A stretch of 64,000 nt of DNA, from positions 930,001 through 994,000 of the forward strand of contig NZ_CP149822.1 in assembly GCF_038396755.1 (NCBI RefSeq), written 5' to 3'. The stretch comes from Chitinophaga pollutisoli. GTDB taxonomy: Bacteria; Bacteroidota; Bacteroidia; Chitinophagales; Chitinophagaceae. The stretch's first letter is position 1. Each line of letters opens with the position of its first letter. The notes beneath the pieces are model-generated. The model worked only from the letters and a program-made list of their open reading frames with translations, was not told where the DNA came from and did no database searches. Made by a program: the position numbers and the translations under genes. Of this stretch, positions 50,557 through 60,983 are shown piece after piece.

Positions 50557-51320
50557 TCAGCTTGTTTTCACGACCCATTCGAGGAAATTGGGCATCACGC
50601 CCGCCCAGGTTTCATAATTGTGACGCCCTCCCGGCACCAGCTCATACCGGATCTGGCGGCCTTTTTCATAGCCCTTCTGCTCAAGAATGCGGACGAGGTC
50701 TTCCGTATCGTCGACAGCGTCGATGATGCCGTTCGCGTTACGGTCGGCCAGTTCGTCATCAGTGCCGGCTTCAAAGAAGAATTTCAGTTGCGGACGGAAG
50801 GCGCCTTCCTCCACCTGCCGGTGCATGATGCGCGGGCCGCCGTCGGGCGATGAGCGCCACCAGAGCGAACCGGAGAACACCCCGGCTTTGTGGAACTGGT
50901 CGGGGTGATTCCAAACGATATCCAATGCGGAAAGCCCTCCCAGCGAGAATCCCGCGAAGGTAATATCAGGAAAGGACTGGTGATAGCGGCTGCGCAGGAA
51001 GGGCAACAACTCACGCAGCACAAAACGCGCGTACAAAGAAGCTTTACATCCTTCCCCCTTGCCCCTACATGTTTTTCCGTACCATATTCCTGGCTCCGTT
51101 GCGGGCCGGCATGGATGGCCGCCACCCACAAAGACGGATGAGTGGTGTTTTGCAGATGTTCCAGCATGGCGGGGAAGCCCATTCCTTCCAGCTCCTGCCC
51201 GTCGTTGATGAGCAACAGGTGCGGCGTTTCGCGCGAAGTGGGCGGCAAATAGCAATCAAAAGTCACTTCCCGCTGGAGGAAGAGCGAATACTGTCCGAAT
51301 GATTCTGTTCTGGGGAGCAT
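50557..51320 (-). pseudogene. Alpha/beta-hydrolase esterase, frameshifted as given
   Basis: Two frames together encode one ~254-aa esterase D-like protein. The first begins MLPRTESFGQYSLFLQREVT and runs to about AGPQRSQEYGTEK; the second continues with GKGEGCKASLYARFVLRELL, the nucleophile elbow GFSLGG (Ser) and the late HNYETW (His). The switch lies in a five-T run at 51072-51076; one more T would restore the frame. The triad appears intact apart from this. Cytosolic, no signal peptide. It may be a sequencing error; otherwise the gene is inactive. Confidence 0.82.
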
Positions 51321-51411: not shown

Positions 51412-51867
51412 ATGCAATTAAAACGATACCTGTTGCCTGTGGCATTGCTATTATCGCAGGCGGTTTGGGCGCAACAGGCCGTCACCCGCACCGACAAATC
51501 CGTTCCCAACACCCTGCTTAAAGGCCAGGCGCCCGACGGCGCTTATCCTTTCCTGGTAGTAACGGAACTAACCTTGCCGGGATGCAAGCCTTCGGGGCTC
51601 ACTGCGGAGCAGGAAGAAACGCATGCTTCCATTTCCGAATCCGCTTCGCGGCAAATGCAGCTGGTAACGGAAAATGTGGAAGCGGGATACACGACCCTCG
51701 GCTGCAAGCGTACCGATTTTTATTACGTGACCGATACGCTGGATTTGCGCACGGTCATGCAGATTTTTTATAAAGACAATTACGGCGCCTATCCGCACAC
51801 CGTGACCATCCGCCCCGATCCCGGCTGGAAGGCTTACCTCGGGCTGCTGGAAGCCACCGGCAAGTAA
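51412..51867 (+). CDS. Small secreted protein, possibly DUF695-like
   Basis: 151 aa with signal peptide (MQLKRYLLPVALLLSQAVWA). The mature region contains LLKGQAPDGAYPFLVVTELT and FYYVTDTLDLRTVMQIFYKD, reminiscent of the DUF695 family, but the match is from memory and weak. It lies between the two esterase genes, on the plus strand, 42 bases before the ligase cluster, and may or may not belong to it. Confidence 0.6.
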   Translation: MQLKRYLLPVALLLSQAVWAQQAVTRTDKSVPNTLLKGQAPDGAYPFLVVTELTLPGCKPSGLTAEQEETHASISESASRQMQLVTENVEAGYTTLGCKRTDFYYVTDTLDLRTVMQIFYKDNYGAYPHTVTIRPDPGWKAYLGLLEATGK

Positions 51868-51908
51868 GACCATCCTGATACCTGAAACTGTGAAAAACCA
51901 AACGGCAT

Positions 51909-52674
51909 ATGCCCGCATGTACCATTCCTTTACCTGAAAAACGTTTATCCGTAAAACCCGAAGCATTGACAGAAAACTATCACAAATGGCAATCCCCTAC
52001 GCTGGGCCGCGAATTTGAAATGCTTGTTTTCGGCCATGCCGGTTATCCGCTGGTCCTCTTCCCCACCTCCATGGGGCGTTACTACGAAAACAAGGACCGC
52101 GGCCTCATCGACGCAGTGGCCTGGTTCGTGCAAAACGGCAGGGTCCGCATTTATTGTCCGGACAGCATCGATTCGCTGAGCTGGTTCAACACCCACATCC
52201 ACCCCGCCGAAAGGGCCCGCAACCACGCGCAATACGACGCCCTCCTCATGCAGGAATTGCTGCCCCGTATCCGTAAAGAAACGGGGCACGATCGCATCGC
52301 TGTGGGCGGATGCAGTTTCGGGGGATATCACGCCGCCAATTTCGCGTTCCGCCATCCCGAATCGGTGGCTTACCTTTTTTCGCTGAGCGGATTGTTTGAT
52401 ATCCGTTCGCGGGTGGAAGGGCATTACGATGATAACGTGTATTACCACAATCCGATGGATTTCGTGCCCGACAACCGGCACCCCGACCTCTGGAACATGG
52501 GGATCGTGCTGGGCGCGGCGGAAAACGATATTTCCAGGAGCCAGAACGAGCAGTTTTCAGGCATCCTGCAACAAAAAAATCCAGCACTGGCTTGATGTGC
52601 GGCCCAACGCGCAGCACGACTGGCCGTCCTGGAAACAGATGCTCCCGCATTATCTCTCCCTGTTAAAACATTGA
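51909..52674 (+). pseudogene. Alpha/beta-hydrolase esterase of the ligase cluster, frameshifted near the C-terminus as given
   Basis: Esterase-fold protein with the nucleophile elbow GGCSFGGYHA and a start at either ATG 51909 or an in-frame TTG at 51966 (LTENYHKWQSPTLGREFEML). The frame runs to LQQKNPALA and stops, but after removing one A from the seven-A run at 52573-52579 it continues as QHWLDVRPNAQHDWPSWKQM and ends at 52674, supplying the catalytic His in QHDWPSW. The stop then lies only three bases before the ATP-grasp gene, as expected in a tight operon. It likely hydrolyses or transfers an ester or amide in the pathway. Confidence 0.82.
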
Positions 52675-52677
52675 CGG

Positions 52678-53625
52678 ATGATGAAAATCGGCATCCTGTA
52701 CGGCCAGGAAAACACATTCCCGCAGGCGTTCACGGACCAGGTCAACCGCATCTGCGGGCCCAACGTGCTGGCGGAATCCGTGCTGATCGACAAAGCCCTG
52801 CAGGGCGGCACGGCGGAGTACGCCGTGGTGGTGGACCGCATTTCGCACGATGTTCCTTTTTACCGCGCCTGGCTGAAAGACGCCGCGCTCCGGGGTACCG
52901 CAGTGCTGAACAATCCCTTCTGGTGGTCGGCCGACGAAAAGTATTTTAACAATGCGCTGGCGCTGCGGATCGGCGTTCCGGTGCCCAACACCGCGCTGTT
53001 GCCCGCATTTGAGCAGCCGGGCAACACCAGTTCCCGATCGTTCCGCAACCTCGCGTACCCGCTGGACTGGGAAGGGATCTTCCGCTTCGTGGGGTTTCCC
53101 GCGTATCTCAAACCTTACGCCGGCGGCGGCTGGCGCGATGTATATTACATCAACGACGCCGAACAGTTTTTTGCCGTACACCAGCAAACCGGCCGCGAAA
53201 CCATGATGCTCCAGGCCGCGGTGGAATGGGAGGAATACTACCGCTGCTATTGCATCGGCGCCGCCGATGTACGCATTATGCCCTACGATCCCCGCCTGCC
53301 GCATGCGGAACGCTATTACGCGGGGTTCAGCGCCGGAGAAGTGCTGCACGCACAGCTGGAAGCATTCACAATTGCCCTGAACCGCGCGCTGGGATATGAT
53401 TTCAACACCGTGGAATTTGCCGTAAAAAACGGCGTGCCTTATGCCATCGACTTCTGCAATCCCGCACCGGACGCGGACCCGCAATCGGTTGGCCAGGAGA
53501 ATTTCAGGTGGTACGTCGAAAAATCGGCGCGATATGCGCTGGATCGTGCGCTGGAAGCGCGCCCCGGGGTCGATAACCTTCATTGGGGCACGTTCGTCCG
53601 CCGCGCCGCCGGCATTCCGGAATAA
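52678..53625 (+). CDS. ATP-grasp family ligase-like protein
   Basis: 315 aa. Central ATP-grasp signatures are FPAYLKPYAGGGWRDVYYIN (about 140-159: Lys145-Pro-Tyr and a Gly-rich loop) and the C-terminal metal site YDFNTVEFAVKNGVPYAIDF with CNPAPD (about 240-266). The N-terminal region (MKIGILYGQENTFPQAF) resembles the pre-ATP-grasp fold. ATP-grasp enzymes join a carboxylate to an amine via acyl phosphate. It sits between the esterase and the COG2170-type ligase genes with gaps of 3 and 37 bases. Substrates are unknown. Confidence 0.8.
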   Translation: MMKIGILYGQENTFPQAFTDQVNRICGPNVLAESVLIDKALQGGTAEYAVVVDRISHDVPFYRAWLKDAALRGTAVLNNPFWWSADEKYFNNALALRIGVPVPNTALLPAFEQPGNTSSRSFRNLAYPLDWEGIFRFVGFPAYLKPYAGGGWRDVYYINDAEQFFAVHQQTGRETMMLQAAVEWEEYYRCYCIGAADVRIMPYDPRLPHAERYYAGFSAGEVLHAQLEAFTIALNRALGYDFNTVEFAVKNGVPYAIDFCNPAPDADPQSVGQENFRWYVEKSARYALDRALEARPGVDNLHWGTFVRRAAGIPE

Positions 53626-53662
53626 TTTACGAACTTCACATCCGGTTAACCAATTGTCACAC

Positions 53663-54766
53663 ATGAACTTTGCCGCTTTTACGTTAGGTATCGAAGAAGA
53701 ATACATGGTCATGGACCCCGAAACCCGGGAACTCCGCTCCCATGAACAAAAAATCGTGGAACAAGCCCAAAAGGTGATCAAAGACAAAGTGAAGGCCGAA
53801 ATGCACCAGGCCGTCGTGGAAGTGGGCACACAGATCTGCGCCAATATCGAAGAAGCCTGGGCCGACGTTTCGCTGCTGCGCAAAACCATCCACGAAATCG
53901 CCGGGAACCTCGGCTTCAGCATCGGCGCCTCGGGCACCCATCCGTTTTCGAAATGGGAAAAACAGCTCATCACCGATCATCCCCGCTACTTCGAACTGGT
54001 CAATGAAATGCAGGACGCCGCCCGCTCCAACCTCATCTACGGACTGCACGTCCACGTAGGCATGGAAAACCGCGAAATGGCCATCCACATCGCCAACAGC
54101 GTCCGTTACTTCCTGCCCCACGTATTCGCCCTGAGCACCAACTCACCGTTCTGGGAAGGGCGCAACACCGGCTTCAAATCCTTCCGTACAAAGGTTTTTG
54201 ATAAATTCCCCCGCACCGGCATCCCCGATTATTTCGCCAGTATCGAGGAATATGACAACTACATCAAGCTGCTCGTTAAAACCAATTGTATCGACAACGC
54301 GAAGAAAGTCTGGTGGGACCTCCGCGTGCACCCTTTCTTTAATACCGTCGAATTCCGCATCTGCGACGTGCCGCTCACTGTCCGCGAAACCATCACGCTG
54401 GCCGCGATTTTCCAGGCGGTGTGCGTAAAAATATACAAGCTCCGCGCCCAGAATCTCAACTTCATCCTCTATAACCGCGCCCTCATCAACGAAAACAAAT
54501 GGCGCGCCTCCCGCTACGGGATCGACGGCAACCTGATCGATTTCGGGAAAGAGATGGAAGTCAACACCCGCGCACTCATCCATGAGCTCCTCGATTTCGT
54601 GGACGACGTCGTCGACGACCTCGGCACCCGCGATATCGTAGTGCAGGGCACAGAAGAAATTTTATCCGGCGGAACCGGCGCGGACAAACAGCTTCAGGTG
54701 TTTGAAGCATCCGGAAATGATTTTACTGCTGTAGTAGATTACATACAATCCCGCTTTCTGGCGTAA
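53663..54766 (+). CDS. Carboxylate-amine ligase (YbdK/GCS2, COG2170 type)
   Basis: 367 aa with the glutamine-synthetase/gamma-glutamylcysteine-ligase fold. The N-terminal metal motif FTLGIEEEYMVMD, HQAVVEVGTQICANIEEA, SIGASGTHPFSKWEKQ and YGLHVHVGM (His pair) are diagnostic; NTVEFRICDVPLTVRET carries the active-site Arg/Glu block. It joins a carboxylate (Glu-like) to an amine with ATP. YbdK itself has weak gamma-GluCys activity, but family members are used in specialised pathways, as the neighbourhood suggests here. Confidence 0.92.
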   Translation: MNFAAFTLGIEEEYMVMDPETRELRSHEQKIVEQAQKVIKDKVKAEMHQAVVEVGTQICANIEEAWADVSLLRKTIHEIAGNLGFSIGASGTHPFSKWEKQLITDHPRYFELVNEMQDAARSNLIYGLHVHVGMENREMAIHIANSVRYFLPHVFALSTNSPFWEGRNTGFKSFRTKVFDKFPRTGIPDYFASIEEYDNYIKLLVKTNCIDNAKKVWWDLRVHPFFNTVEFRICDVPLTVRETITLAAIFQAVCVKIYKLRAQNLNFILYNRALINENKWRASRYGIDGNLIDFGKEMEVNTRALIHELLDFVDDVVDDLGTRDIVVQGTEEILSGGTGADKQLQVFEASGNDFTAVVDYIQSRFLA

Positions 54767-54771
54767 TTTTG
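54764..54771 (+). promoter_or_regulatory. Possible internal -7 element
   Basis: TAATTTTG matches TAnnTTTG, overlaps the stop of the carboxylate-amine ligase and ends 5 bases before the amidotransferase ATG. May be coincidental. Confidence 0.25.
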
Positions 54772-54776
54772 CAGTA

Positions 54777-55586
54777 ATGAAAGTAGCAGTACTTGACCTG
54801 TACGAAGGTGTACCTAACGAAGGAATGCGCTGTATCCGTGAATTGCTCCTGCAATTCGCCGAATCACGGCAGATCTCGCTGCAACTCAACGAATTCGACG
54901 TGCGTGGCCAAAGCCAGGTGCCGGATTTGGGGTACGACGTGTATATCAGCACGGGCGGGCCGGGTTCCCCCGTCGACAGTGCCGGCAGTAACTGGGAAAA
55001 CGCTTATTTCGGCTGGTTGCAATCGGTACTGGACTGGAACCTGCGGGAAGGAAGCCGTAAAAAGCACATCTTCCTCATCTGCCATTCGTTCCAGATCGTA
55101 TGCCGTTTTTTTGAACTGGGAGAAGTATGCAGGCGGAAAAGCTCCGCTTTCGGCGTGTTTCCCGTCCACCTGACTGCCGCCGGCGAGAAAGAAGCCGTGT
55201 TCGCTGGCTTGCACGATCCGTTTTACATCGTTGACAGCCGCCACTGGCAAGTAATTCAACCGCACGAGGAAAACCTCCGGGCCATGGGCGCCGAGGTATT
55301 GGCGATCGAGAAAGAAAGGCCGCACGTACCCCTGGAACGGGCTACCATGGCCATCCGGTTCAATCCTTATATGATCGGAACGCAATTCCATCCCGAAGCA
55401 GACGCCGAAGGGATGCACAAATACCTCCGCCAGCCCACCCGCCGCCATCGCGTGGTAGCCGATCACGGGGCGGAGAAATACGAAAACATGCTGGAGCTGC
55501 TGCAACAGCCGGACAAGATCCTGCTCACGCACGATACCCTGCTGCCCAATTTCCTGGAAGCGGCGCTGCATTACCAGCATACCTAA
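54777..55586 (+). CDS. Class-I glutamine amidotransferase-like protein
   Basis: 269 aa with a flavodoxin-like GATase-1 fold: GGPGSPVDSA (oxyanion strand), nucleophile Cys102 in FLICHSFQIVC, and the His-Glu pair in IGTQFHPEADAEG (His205, Glu207), so the catalytic triad is intact. The usual GxCxGxQ elbow is altered to ICHSFQ. It is a free-standing glutaminase domain, so it may supply ammonia to a neighbouring ligase, or hydrolyse a gamma-glutamyl product. Gap of 10 bases on both sides. Confidence 0.88.
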   Translation: MKVAVLDLYEGVPNEGMRCIRELLLQFAESRQISLQLNEFDVRGQSQVPDLGYDVYISTGGPGSPVDSAGSNWENAYFGWLQSVLDWNLREGSRKKHIFLICHSFQIVCRFFELGEVCRRKSSAFGVFPVHLTAAGEKEAVFAGLHDPFYIVDSRHWQVIQPHEENLRAMGAEVLAIEKERPHVPLERATMAIRFNPYMIGTQFHPEADAEGMHKYLRQPTRRHRVVADHGAEKYENMLELLQQPDKILLTHDTLLPNFLEAALHYQHT

Positions 55587-55596
55587 AACTAATATC

Positions 55597-56790
55597 ATGA
55601 TCCCCGATATCCGCCACGCATACAACCAGTCGTTCTCCCCAGCCAGGTACCAGGACCTGCTGAAAGAACTGGGCCGCATTTCAGGCGTGGAGCCCGCCTT
55701 CCGCGTAGCGGAAACCCCCGTTTTCATTCCACGCGAACTTACCAACCGGTTGCTAGAAGCAGGCGATGAAATCCTGAAAGTGGTGACGCGGCCCGATATC
55801 AAGACCCTCACGGCCGGGGCTATCCCGAAAACATTCAACGTACCTGGCGAAAACGCCCGCCCGCAGTTCATCATCATCGATTTTGCCGTCACCCGTGCAA
55901 ACGATGGCTCCCTCACCCCCAAACTCATCGAGCTGCAGGGGTTCCCGAGCCTTTTCGGCTTCCAGCAACTGCTCGCTGCCGCATACCGGCGGCATACCAA
56001 CGTACCTTCGGGATTGGAGAACCTGGGCAAAGGACTGGACGATCATTCTTATCGTGATTTGCTCCGGCGCACCATCGTCGGGAGTAAACCGCCCGAAGAA
56101 ACCATTTTGCTGGAAGTATTGCCATTGCAGCAAAAAACGTTGATTGATTTCGCCTGTACGGAAGAGATGCTCGGCATCCCGGTGGTTTGCGTATCGGAAC
56201 TGAAACAGAGTGGCCGGCAGCTGTATTTTGAAAGGCAGGGCAGGAAGCGGCCCGTCAGCCGGATATACAACCGCGTCATCTTCGAAGACCTCGAAAATAT
56301 GCGGCCGCAGCTGGGCAATCCGATTGATCTCCGCCAGGATTTCGACGTGGAATGGGCGCCACATCCCAACTGGTATTACCGTATCAGCAAATACCTCCTG
56401 CCCCACATCCACGGTCCATTTGCGCCACGCGCCTGGTTCCTGGACGAAATCCCCGTGCTACCGCAGCAGCTGGACCAGTTCGTGCTGAAGCCCCTCTTCT
56501 CCTTCGCGGGCCAGGGTGTGATCATCGACCCCACGCCGGAAGATGTGGCGAAGATCAGCGACCCCGGTAACTGGATTTTGCAGGAAAAAGTGGAGTATGC
56601 CCAGGCGGTGGAAACGCCTACCGGTCCGGCCAAATGTGAAATCCGGCTCATGTATTGCTGGCCCGACGACGCCCCGGCTCCCATCCTCGCCCAAAACCTC
56701 GCCAGGCTGAGCAAAGGCAAAATGATCGGGGTGAGTTACAACCAGTCGCAGGACTGGGTGGGTGGCAGCAGCTCCTTCTTTGAATACTAA
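55597..56790 (+). CDS. Second ATP-grasp-like ligase protein
   Basis: 397 aa, unnamed family. The C-terminal half holds an ATP-grasp-like nucleotide loop, FVLKPLFSFAGQGVIID (Lys298-Pro-Leu, Gly-rich loop), with LQEKVEYAQAV and CEIRLMYCW after it. The N-terminal half has FIIIDFAVTR and KLIELQGFPSLFGFQ, where a Glu could serve as a metal ligand; that order hints at a circularly permuted ATP-grasp such as glutathionylspermidine synthetase. It is the third putative ligase in the cluster. Predicted; no homologue known to me is characterised. Confidence 0.72.
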   Translation: MIPDIRHAYNQSFSPARYQDLLKELGRISGVEPAFRVAETPVFIPRELTNRLLEAGDEILKVVTRPDIKTLTAGAIPKTFNVPGENARPQFIIIDFAVTRANDGSLTPKLIELQGFPSLFGFQQLLAAAYRRHTNVPSGLENLGKGLDDHSYRDLLRRTIVGSKPPEETILLEVLPLQQKTLIDFACTEEMLGIPVVCVSELKQSGRQLYFERQGRKRPVSRIYNRVIFEDLENMRPQLGNPIDLRQDFDVEWAPHPNWYYRISKYLLPHIHGPFAPRAWFLDEIPVLPQQLDQFVLKPLFSFAGQGVIIDPTPEDVAKISDPGNWILQEKVEYAQAVETPTGPAKCEIRLMYCWPDDAPAPILAQNLARLSKGKMIGVSYNQSQDWVGGSSSFFEY

Positions 56791-56800
56791 AAACTAAGAT

Positions 56801-57193
56801 ATGCAACGACTCAACATCAGTTCAGGCGCCGTTTGGGAATCCAAAGTCGGTTATTCCCGCGCGGTCAGGATCGGCAATGTGGTGGAAGTTTCGGGAACGG
56901 TTTCGGCCGACGGCGACAAGATCGTGGGCGCGGGCGATCCTTACGAGCAAGCCAAACACGCCCTCGCCAAGATCGAGGCGGTGCTGGTGAAAGCCGGCGC
57001 CACGCTGCACGACGTGGTGCGTACGCGTATGTTCGTTACCGATATTTCCAAATGGGAGGAAGTAGGCCGCGCGCACGGGGAGTTTTTCGGCGGCATTCGG
57101 CCAGTTACCACCATGGTGGAAGTAAGCGCGCTCATCCACCCCGACCTGATGGTAGAAATTGAGGCTACGGCCATCGTTCCGGTACAGAGTTGA
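56801..57193 (+). CDS. RidA/YjgF family protein
   Basis: 130 aa trimeric-fold protein with the family blocks VRIGNVVEVSGTVSADG, TRMFVTDISKWEEVGRAH and MVEVSALIHPDLMVEIEATA. In RidA enamine deaminases an Arg (E. coli Arg105, in VARLPKD) is required; here the aligned stretch reads VSALIHPD, without Arg, so ordinary deaminase activity is doubtful. It ends the cluster, 10 bases after the ligase gene, suggesting a role on a pathway intermediate. Confidence 0.88.
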   Translation: MQRLNISSGAVWESKVGYSRAVRIGNVVEVSGTVSADGDKIVGAGDPYEQAKHALAKIEAVLVKAGATLHDVVRTRMFVTDISKWEEVGRAHGEFFGGIRPVTTMVEVSALIHPDLMVEIEATAIVPVQS

Positions 57194-57204: not shown

Positions 57205-57234
57205 TAAAAAAGCCGGATGCGGATGCATCCGGCT
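57205..57234 (-). terminator. Terminator between convergent ridA-like and rhodanese genes
   Basis: AGCCGGATGC / GCATCCGGCT with a four-base loop and a six-T tract on the minus strand; the stem may also end the plus-strand operon. Confidence 0.85.
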
Positions 57235-57257
57235 TAAAGGCATGTGCCTTAAAAAGT

Positions 57258-59969: not shown

Positions 59970-60983
59970 ATGAATGTAACTAATAAAATCACCCTCTTGG
60001 AGCGCCTGGGGGCATATCTGAACGGACAGGGTACGGAAGAAGAGCGCGAGCAGCTCCGTTTGGCCAAACAAAAGGCTTTCCATCAAAACGGGTGGTTTAT
60101 CCCCGAATTTGTGGATCTTTCGATCCAACAGATCGCAGATAATTTTCTGAGACGCCCCCTGCTGGAAGCGTGGGTAGCGCAATATCCGGGGTTCGGGGAA
60201 CTGGCTTCCCCCAAAAATGTGGGCATCGTGGCGGCGGGTAATATTCCGCTCGTCGGCTTTCATGACTGGTTGACAGGCTTCCTTTCGGGGCACCGCATCA
60301 AACTGAAATTGTCGTCGAAAGATGATGTGCTGCTCCCCCACCTGATCGGAAAAATCGCGGAATGGTCGCCCCAAGCCGGCGAAATCACGGAAATCCGGGA
60401 TGTGCTCAAAGACTGCGACGCTTACATCGCCACGGGCAGCAACAATTCCGCCCGATATTTTGAATATTACTTCTCAAAATACCCACATATCATCCGCCGC
60501 AACCGCACTTCCGTGGCGGTGCTCACCGGTTCCGAAACGCTCGCCGACCTGGAGGCCCTCGCATCCGACGCGCTGCTGTACTTCGGTCTGGGCTGCCGTA
60601 ACGTTACCAAAGTGTACGTGCCGGAAGGATATGATTTCGAAGCCCTCATGACCGCCTTCAAAAAATTCGACTGGCTCATGGACAACCACAAGTACAAGAA
60701 CAATTACGATTATAACCTGGCATTGCTTATGCTCAACAGCGCGAAGTTCCAAACGAACGACAACCTGTTGCTGCATGAAAACGAGTCGGTATTCTCTCCC
60801 CTGAGCGTGCTTCATTACAGCGTATACCGCAACCGCGCGGAGCTGGAGGAGCAACTTGCCGGAAACCCCGATCTGCAATGCATTGTGGCAGCCGATCGTA
60901 TACCGTTCGGTCAGGCGCAGGCGCCCCGCCTCTCCGATTATGCCGACGGCGTAGATACGCCCGCATTTTTCGCCGCGCTCTGA
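59970..60983 (+). CDS. LuxC-like acyl-CoA reductase
   Basis: 337 aa, PF05893-type NAD(P)H-dependent fatty acyl-CoA reductase, shorter than true LuxC (about 480 aa). Visible are VGIVAAGNIPLVGFHDWL, DVLKDCDAYIATGSNNSARYF and GLGCRNVTKVYVPEGYD, the last with the putative catalytic Cys. No other lux genes are nearby, so it is not a luminescence enzyme. It probably makes aldehydes from acyl-CoA. Its 3' side holds an inverted repeat terminator (61039-61070). Confidence 0.88.
   Translation: MNVTNKITLLERLGAYLNGQGTEEEREQLRLAKQKAFHQNGWFIPEFVDLSIQQIADNFLRRPLLEAWVAQYPGFGELASPKNVGIVAAGNIPLVGFHDWLTGFLSGHRIKLKLSSKDDVLLPHLIGKIAEWSPQAGEITEIRDVLKDCDAYIATGSNNSARYFEYYFSKYPHIIRRNRTSVAVLTGSETLADLEALASDALLYFGLGCRNVTKVYVPEGYDFEALMTAFKKFDWLMDNHKYKNNYDYNLALLMLNSAKFQTNDNLLLHENESVFSPLSVLHYSVYRNRAELEEQLAGNPDLQCIVAADRIPFGQAQAPRLSDYADGVDTPAFFAAL

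Follow-up and report, generated by a model that had tools for sequence, protein, structure and literature searches.

A conserved run of predicted amide-forming ligases in Chitinophaga pollutisoli, a candidate pathway to a small peptide-like or amide metabolite

In the PuuA-PuuD and gamma-glutamylanilide routes, a ligase attaches glutamate and a hydrolase of the class-I glutamine amidotransferase (GATase) fold takes it off again; in the Puu-type routes, it is an amine that is tagged in this way and later released. The amidotransferase-ligase pair MurT/GatD makes a terminal carboxamide, and Iyer et al. reportedly predicted amidoligase operons in 2009 in which ATP-grasp and other ligases, together with peptidases, would make unknown peptides. 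Among individual enzymes, YgiC and YjfC have been named peptidylpolyamine synthetases, and Cp1B has been presented as an ATP-grasp enzyme that forms amides (PMC12568646). Here, we describe a run of genes in Chitinophaga pollutisoli that combines three predicted ligases (Grasp1, GCS2 and Grasp2) with an esterase (EstA) and a GATase-like protein (GAT). The window, i.e. the whole stretch of DNA that was analysed, comprises 64,000 nucleotides (contig NZ_CP149822.1, positions 930,001 to 994,000) of a 6.08 Mb, single-contig genome whose closest relatives in a search with Grasp2 are other Chitinophaga.

The best reading of the run is that of one ribosome- and nonribosomal peptide synthetase-independent pathway that would make and trim a small peptide-like or amide metabolite via a gamma-glutamyl-type intermediate, because synteny is conserved, the ligases co-occur and catalytic residues are kept; we regard this reading as having about an even chance of being correct. 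A first-pass annotation of the window had likewise proposed a small-amide or peptide pathway, of which the general idea stands as the best interpretation, whereas the RidA-family protein it included falls outside the wider system and an ammonia role of the GATase has become doubtful. The core of the system consists of EstA, Grasp1, GCS2, GAT and Grasp2, with RidA appended in Chitinophaga only. Seven genes on the + strand, spanning 51412 to 57193, make up the run and are given here together with a displaced piece of EstA and a hairpin:

51412..51867, + strand: DUF695-like protein, 151 amino acids (sub-threshold PF05117 match, 19.4 bits; cut-off 23.1; signal-like N-terminus by eye)
51909..52595, + strand: EstA, PF00756-type esterase with a GCSFGG motif, open reading frame (ORF) shortened by an apparent frameshift (Pfam, 29.7 bits; cut-off 22)
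52573..52674, + strand: C-terminal piece of EstA, displaced into a different frame and carrying an HDWPxW motif (tblastn with the homologue of locus L005)
52678..53625, + strand: Grasp1, Ddl/LysX/ArgX-like ATP-grasp ligase, 315 amino acids (predicted structure and Foldseek)
53663..54766, + strand: GCS2, YbdK-family carboxylate-amine ligase, 367 amino acids (PF04107, 198 bits; cut-off 21)
54777..55586, + strand: GAT, class-I GATase-like protein and proposed amide hydrolase, 269 amino acids (PF00117, 31.2 bits; cut-off 22.8)
55597..56790, + strand: Grasp2, eukaryotic-type glutathione synthetase/YgiC-like ATP-grasp protein, 397 amino acids (predicted structure and Foldseek)
56801..57193, + strand: RidA-family protein, final gene of the run (PF01042, 104.5 bits; cut-off 27.3)
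57210..57235, no strand assigned: palindromic hairpin with an 11-pair stem (read from the sequence; a scan lists it as terminator-like on the - strand)

The order EstA-Grasp1-GCS2-GAT-Grasp2-RidA is found in all ten Chitinophaga loci that cover it, one of which (L016) has broken ORFs, while an eleventh Chitinophaga locus (L004) covers GAT onwards only. Among 60 Grasp2 loci of other Bacteroidota, which were drawn from 60 of the 92 matched genomes with the best matches first rather than at random, all four partners lie upstream on the same strand in 14 and at least one partner does so in 34. The order Grasp1-GCS2-GAT-Grasp2 also occurs in a Chthonomonas metagenome-assembled genome of the Armatimonadota (L015), and GCS2-GAT-Grasp2 is present on two short Fimbriimonadaceae contigs of the same phylum (L013 and L014), with Grasp1 elsewhere in both genomes. 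The system is sporadic in this phylum, since five of 61 genomes drawn from it match the Grasp1 profile (E ≤ 0.001), and three of these matches, including the one in the L015 genome itself, are strong. Recurrence of the order in further families and in a second phylum makes the arrangement more than chance, and the conserved synteny for which the first-pass annotation had suggested searching is found in Chitinophaga, in other families and in Armatimonadota. No match to Grasp1 was found in a plasmid collection, a result that does not thereby exclude other mobile elements.

RidA was part of the system as first annotated. It comes after Grasp2 in each of the 11 Chitinophaga loci and was not found in any of the other 63 Grasp2 loci, of which two stop roughly 200 bases past Grasp2, so it does not belong to the wider system, and a core of six genes was rejected. 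The protein carries the Ribonuc_L-PSP domain (PF01042), with TIGR00004 at 66.8 bits falling below its cut-off of 106.25.

Genome-wide co-occurrence was counted in 296 Bacteroidota genomes, from presence lists transcribed by hand into counting scripts. GAT matches with E values of 3.4e-6 to 7.1e-4 in four genomes (G050, G085, G215 and G270) and GCS2 matches with E values of 1e-63 to 1e-82 and 33-39% identity in ten genomes (G004, G167, G207, G215, G231, G246, G254, G258, G270 and G278) were dropped, and four genomes with a divergent Grasp1 of 34-39% identity (G007, G087, G160 and G287) were kept; the total of 50 families was read off the highest family label, and the Fisher tests used throughout ignore phylogeny. 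On this basis, Grasp1 is present in 108 genomes, Grasp2 in 92, GCS2 in 93 and GAT in 70, with all four in 50 genomes, none in 185 and all three ligases in 84. Grasp1 and Grasp2 occur together in 89 genomes (Grasp1 only, 19; Grasp2 only, 3), Grasp1 and GCS2 in 90 (Grasp1 only, 18; GCS2 only, 3) and Grasp2 and GCS2 in 87 (Grasp2 only, 5; GCS2 only, 6). Grasp1 is present in 89 of the 92 Grasp2 genomes and 90 of the 93 GCS2 genomes, even where the genes are unlinked, and the three ligase pairs are strongly associated by genome, genus and family (family-level p = 3e-6, 2e-7 and 1e-9). The first-pass annotation had staked its proposal on co-occurrence in other genomes, which for the ligases holds genome-wide. 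GAT is associated with Grasp1 at the family level as well (p = 8e-5).

What the ligases might do can be judged from their families, predicted folds and conserved residues, the latter taken from alignments of 19-23 diverse members per family. GCS2 matches the NCBIfam models PRK13515 (521.4 bits; cut-off 371) and TIGR02050 (293.2 bits; cut-off 176.4), predicting the activity of a YbdK-type carboxylate-amine ligase; it is a distant relative of glutamate-cysteine ligase, and E10-E12, H128 and H130 (alignment numbering) are invariant. Neither Grasp1 nor Grasp2 has a Pfam match at E ≤ 1, and both were assigned from structure models with predicted local distance difference test (pLDDT) values of 85.4 and 92.0, respectively. 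In Foldseek, the Grasp1 model matches D-Ala-D-Ala ligases (Ddl), ArgX and LysX (E 5e-15 to 2e-12; template modelling (TM) score about 0.6-0.7), which predicts a Ddl/LysX-like ATP-grasp fold; the NCBIfam model rimK_fam reaches 13.8 bits, below its cut-off of 143.4. E246 of Grasp1 is invariant, and K145, G149-W152, D258 and N261 are nearly so. The Grasp2 model matches yeast glutathione synthase (E 8.7e-16), YgiC (9.6e-13) and Cp1B (3.0e-10) at TM scores of about 0.5-0.6, as well as a putative glutathionylspermidine synthase, a homoglutathione synthetase and YjfC, pointing to the eukaryotic glutathione synthetase/YgiC fold; no NCBIfam model matches Grasp2, and YgiC is matched weakly by profile (E 0.032). 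D95, E112, K298, E348 and R350 of Grasp2 are invariant. The catalytic roles of the conserved residues in GCS2, GAT, Grasp1 and Grasp2 are presumed to be those of their families. In all, the identities proposed in the first-pass annotation are upheld, by Pfam for the esterase, GCS2 (its COG2170-type ligase), the GATase and RidA, and by structure models for the ATP-grasp proteins.

GAT itself could act either as an ammonia donor or as an amide hydrolase. Its Pfam match is joined by a class-I triad, C102, H205 and E207, that is invariant in 20 sequences. Amidotransferases carry a GxCxG nucleophile elbow, and this elbow was not found in the GAT alignment, where both glycines are replaced and most rows read F[FL]IC[HY]S[FY]Q. 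Moreover, GAT is absent from 34 of the 84 three-ligase genomes, and in four loci, each of a different family (L068, L080, L082 and L083), another protein lies between GCS2 and Grasp2, in the position of GAT. The two members tested score 63.5 and 53.4 bits with the Peptidase M29 model (cut-off 27); a search of the Protein Data Bank with the M29 relative gave no match. A phylum-wide search places M29 orthologues (E ≤ 2.5e-131; next match 1.1e-31) in six of the 296 genomes, all of which lack GAT and possess the three ligases, and the gene lies between GCS2 and Grasp2 in five of the six, which represent four families (in G055 by coordinates), and elsewhere in G208. An M29 orthologue is thus found in 6/34 three-ligase genomes without GAT vs 0/50 with GAT (p = 0.003). 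Because a peptidase relative occupies the GAT position, an amide-hydrolysing GAT fits better than an ammonia donor, and GAT more likely cuts an amide than supplies ammonia. The class-I GATase assignment of the first-pass annotation therefore stands with its family match and triad, whereas the ammonia role is doubtful given the genomes without GAT, the M29 replacement and the missing elbow. GAT also weakly resembles the homoserine acyltransferase MetA (E 4.3e-5; 23 bits vs a cut-off of 460; 2vdj, E 0.0067), which would allow an acyl-transfer role.

EstA has 89% identity to residues 1-224 of its intact homologue in L005, and its final 33 residues sit in another frame, in a displaced piece that aligns to residues 223-255 of the same homologue at 84.8% identity. 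The HDWPxW motif of this piece probably, as we assume from the esterase family, holds the catalytic histidine. Relative to L005, L006 and L012, the window lacks two bases at an A-rich run near 52580, which is why the EstA ORF already ends at 52595. A second esterase, on the - strand at 50557-51320 and divergent from the operon, is likewise split over two frames, with the break somewhere in 51042-51144, a stretch with a run of five G; in L005, L006 and L012 it is an intact ORF of 254 amino acids. Both breaks may be real frameshifts or sequencing errors. In L016 (Chitinophaga sp. E66), the EstA, GAT and Grasp2 ORFs are broken, possibly also through sequence errors. Relatives of EstA occur in 134 of the 296 Bacteroidota genomes (E ≤ 0.001). 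Of the 59 best-matching genomes (E ≤ 2.4e-53), Grasp1 is present in 54 and absent in five, and it lies within 2 kb of EstA in 48 (counted by eye). Four loci (L163, L164, L165 and L166) have EstA relatives in other neighbourhoods, in genomes without Grasp1.

In the route that we propose, GCS2 would link an amine to the side chain of glutamate or a comparable acid, at the carboxylate, and so yield a gamma-glutamyl-type intermediate. Grasp2 would attach an amino acid or a polyamine to the carboxyl end that is left free, and Grasp1 would join on another residue. GAT, or in other lineages the M29-type aminopeptidase relative, would hydrolyse an amide bond, most likely taking off a temporary (gamma-)glutamyl group, and EstA would hydrolyse an ester on an intermediate or on the product. 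The analysis shows the gene order, the co-occurrence, the folds (as predicted), the conserved catalytic residues and the peptidase relative in the place of GAT; the substrates, the order of steps, hydrolysis as the GAT step and the role of EstA are inferred. Further hydrolases adjoining the core (Amidohydro_3, Amidase and Peptidase S10) count in favour of this reading. More tentatively, and with a chance that we put clearly below even, over a quarter of the sampled Bacteroidota (84/296) could use the genes in a protect-extend-deprotect route to a small molecule that derives from a gamma-glutamyl compound and has so far escaped notice, possibly a cofactor or a peptide signal: GCS2 would add the glutamyl group, Grasp2 and Grasp1 would extend the molecule, and GAT or the unrelated M29-type aminopeptidase relative would remove the group, and a second group of lineages (15 genomes that have Grasp1 and GAT but lack Grasp2) would use another ligase and often a second esterase. 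If true, one metabolite would be shared across a large part of the Bacteroidota. The run also offers a defined minimal gene set for deletion and assay, as well as a clean test case for the role of GATase-fold proteins in operons of this kind, be it as ammonia donors or in amide cleavage.

Several observations weigh against a single pathway of this kind. GAT is not associated at the family level with Grasp2 (p = 0.77) or GCS2 (p = 0.25), and since its only such association is with Grasp1, it may serve a separable step. Grasp2 is missing from 19 of the 108 Grasp1 genomes, 26 of the 60 Grasp2 loci have no partner within 6.5 kb upstream (at least one of them, L105, is cut by a contig end), and the genes are scattered in many genomes. 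No M29 orthologue is found in 28 of the 34 three-ligase genomes without GAT either, so the step is not universal or is done by something else, and the intact Cys-His-Glu triad of GAT would also be required for ammonia donation. EstA has a broken reading frame in C. pollutisoli itself, and many of the 134 genomes with EstA-family proteins have distant matches that lie away from Grasp1. Novelty is limited by the 2009 survey of Iyer et al., which may list this operon.

As in the amidotransferase interpretation of the first-pass annotation, GAT might instead hydrolyse glutamine and feed ammonia to one of the ligases, yielding a terminal carboxamide as MurT/GatD does. The PF00117 match above its cut-off, the invariant triad and the tight linkage of GAT to the ligases in many loci all agree with this, whereas the M29 relative at the GAT position in five GAT-less genomes, the 34 three-ligase genomes that do without GAT and the replacement of both elbow glycines speak against it, and we consider it unlikely. 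The ligases could also serve amine or peptide utilisation, tagging an amine with glutamate for processing as in Puu-type routes, with GAT, M29 or EstA releasing it. Neighbouring amidohydrolases, amidases, peptidases and an aromatic amino acid lyase in some lineages would suit such a role, but two or three ATP-dependent ligations are expensive for catabolism, and no oxidase, aminotransferase or transporter is widely recurrent among the neighbours (dehydrogenase-, ferredoxin- and TonB-like clusters occur in few lineages), making it distinctly improbable.

A low-molecular-weight thiol pathway, in which GCS2 and Grasp2 would be a divergent GshA and a eukaryotic-type GshB making glutathione or a relative, is suggested by the distant relationship of GCS2 to glutamate-cysteine ligase and by the best folds for Grasp2, those of glutathione and homoglutathione synthetases. 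However, a strong BshC (353 bits) encoded in the genome makes bacillithiol the likely thiol, and glutathione does not need Grasp1, GAT or EstA; with this BshC and only one GCS2-family gene in the genome, a main role in glutathione synthesis is unlikely, and the thiol interpretation as a whole seems to us very improbable. A pathway to a small peptide-like or amide metabolite remains our preferred reading of the run.

Around this core, the neighbourhood varies. The DUF695-like gene ends 41 bases 5′ of the esterase and lies upstream of EstA in eight of the ten Chitinophaga loci covering the place; it is an optional first gene within the genus. In a promoter scan, no site on the + strand was found ahead of the first gene of the run, and the hairpin, directly 3′ of RidA and followed by convergent genes, possibly marks the end of the operon. 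GCS2 is taken to start at 53663 (367 amino acids); an alternative ORF of 441 amino acids opens at 53441 and over-extends the protein, because relatives have 364-394 amino acids. The six genes from EstA to RidA were initially described as closely spaced in this order on one strand, which the ORF coordinates confirm; gaps of 37, 10, 10 and 10 bases fit the gene starts, whereas the gap of 3 given for esterase and Grasp1 needs an esterase end at 52674 and the ORF stops at 52595. Downstream of the operon, the window holds a short relative of LuxC-like acyl-CoA reductases (59970-60983, + strand; 26.2 bits vs a cut-off of 21) that is kept in 11 Chitinophaga loci.

A second operon type comes from the 15 genomes with Grasp1 and GAT and without Grasp2, 11 of which contributed the 12 loci examined. 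A protein of about 450 amino acids follows Grasp1 in ten of these loci (L114-L118, L120-L123 and L125) and precedes GAT in nine, a second esterase follows GAT in five and EstA is present in eight; one member each of the protein and of the second esterase was tested by Pfam. Circularly permuted ATP-grasp models match the protein below cut-off (CP_ATPgrasp_2, 23.7 bits vs 32). A relationship of this protein to Grasp2 was considered and not established (hhalign probability 18%, E 0.0013). In family f24, an aromatic amino acid lyase follows Grasp1 in all four Grasp1 loci examined (L126, L127, L129 and L130; in L129 a short opposite ORF lies in the gap), with one member tested matching PF00221 at 654.9 bits and appearing histidine-type by eye. 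The same family has a Peptidase S10 protein after GCS2 in four of four GCS2 loci and an Amidohydro_3 protein before Grasp2 in seven of seven Grasp2 loci (one member of each tested). Overall, the Amidohydro_3 cluster adjoins core genes in ten loci of three families (three members checked by Pfam), those outside f24 being L106 in f27 and L048 and L135 in f1 (the latter two both tested); in L135, an Amidase lies beside it. Other clusters adjoining the core in at least three loci, named by eye and each confined to few lineages, are short-chain-dehydrogenase-like (3), sigma-factor-like (3), ferredoxin-like (6) and TonB-type pieces (4).

Compared with described systems, the run resembles glutathione and homoglutathione synthesis in pairing a GCS2 relative with an ATP-grasp protein of the glutathione synthetase fold, and differs in adding a Ddl/LysX-type ATP-grasp protein, an esterase and either GAT or an M29 relative, with Grasp2 only 13% identical to yeast glutathione synthase. 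With the PuuA-PuuD and gamma-glutamylanilide routes it would share attachment of glutamate by a ligase and, as proposed here, its removal by a GATase-fold protein, whereas its ligase is of another fold, two further ATP-grasp proteins are present and no oxidation enzyme is widely conserved. Our literature search, whose coverage did not extend to the 2009 survey by Iyer et al., found no published description of this gene set. The stand-alone amide-forming ATP-grasp enzymes YgiC and YjfC of E. coli and Cp1B of the fungal E-64 pathway belong to the fold class of Grasp2 (PMC12568646), yet they share no Pfam family with it, the YgiC profile match is weak and their gene partners are different. The Anbu/Alpha-E/transglutaminase/ATP-grasp system is similar in that a putative peptide-ligase ATP-grasp protein has a peptidase partner (PMC5666114); models for Alpha-E, the Anbu proteasome and transglutaminase gave no match in the seven genes of the run, a scan that did not include neighbours in other genomes.

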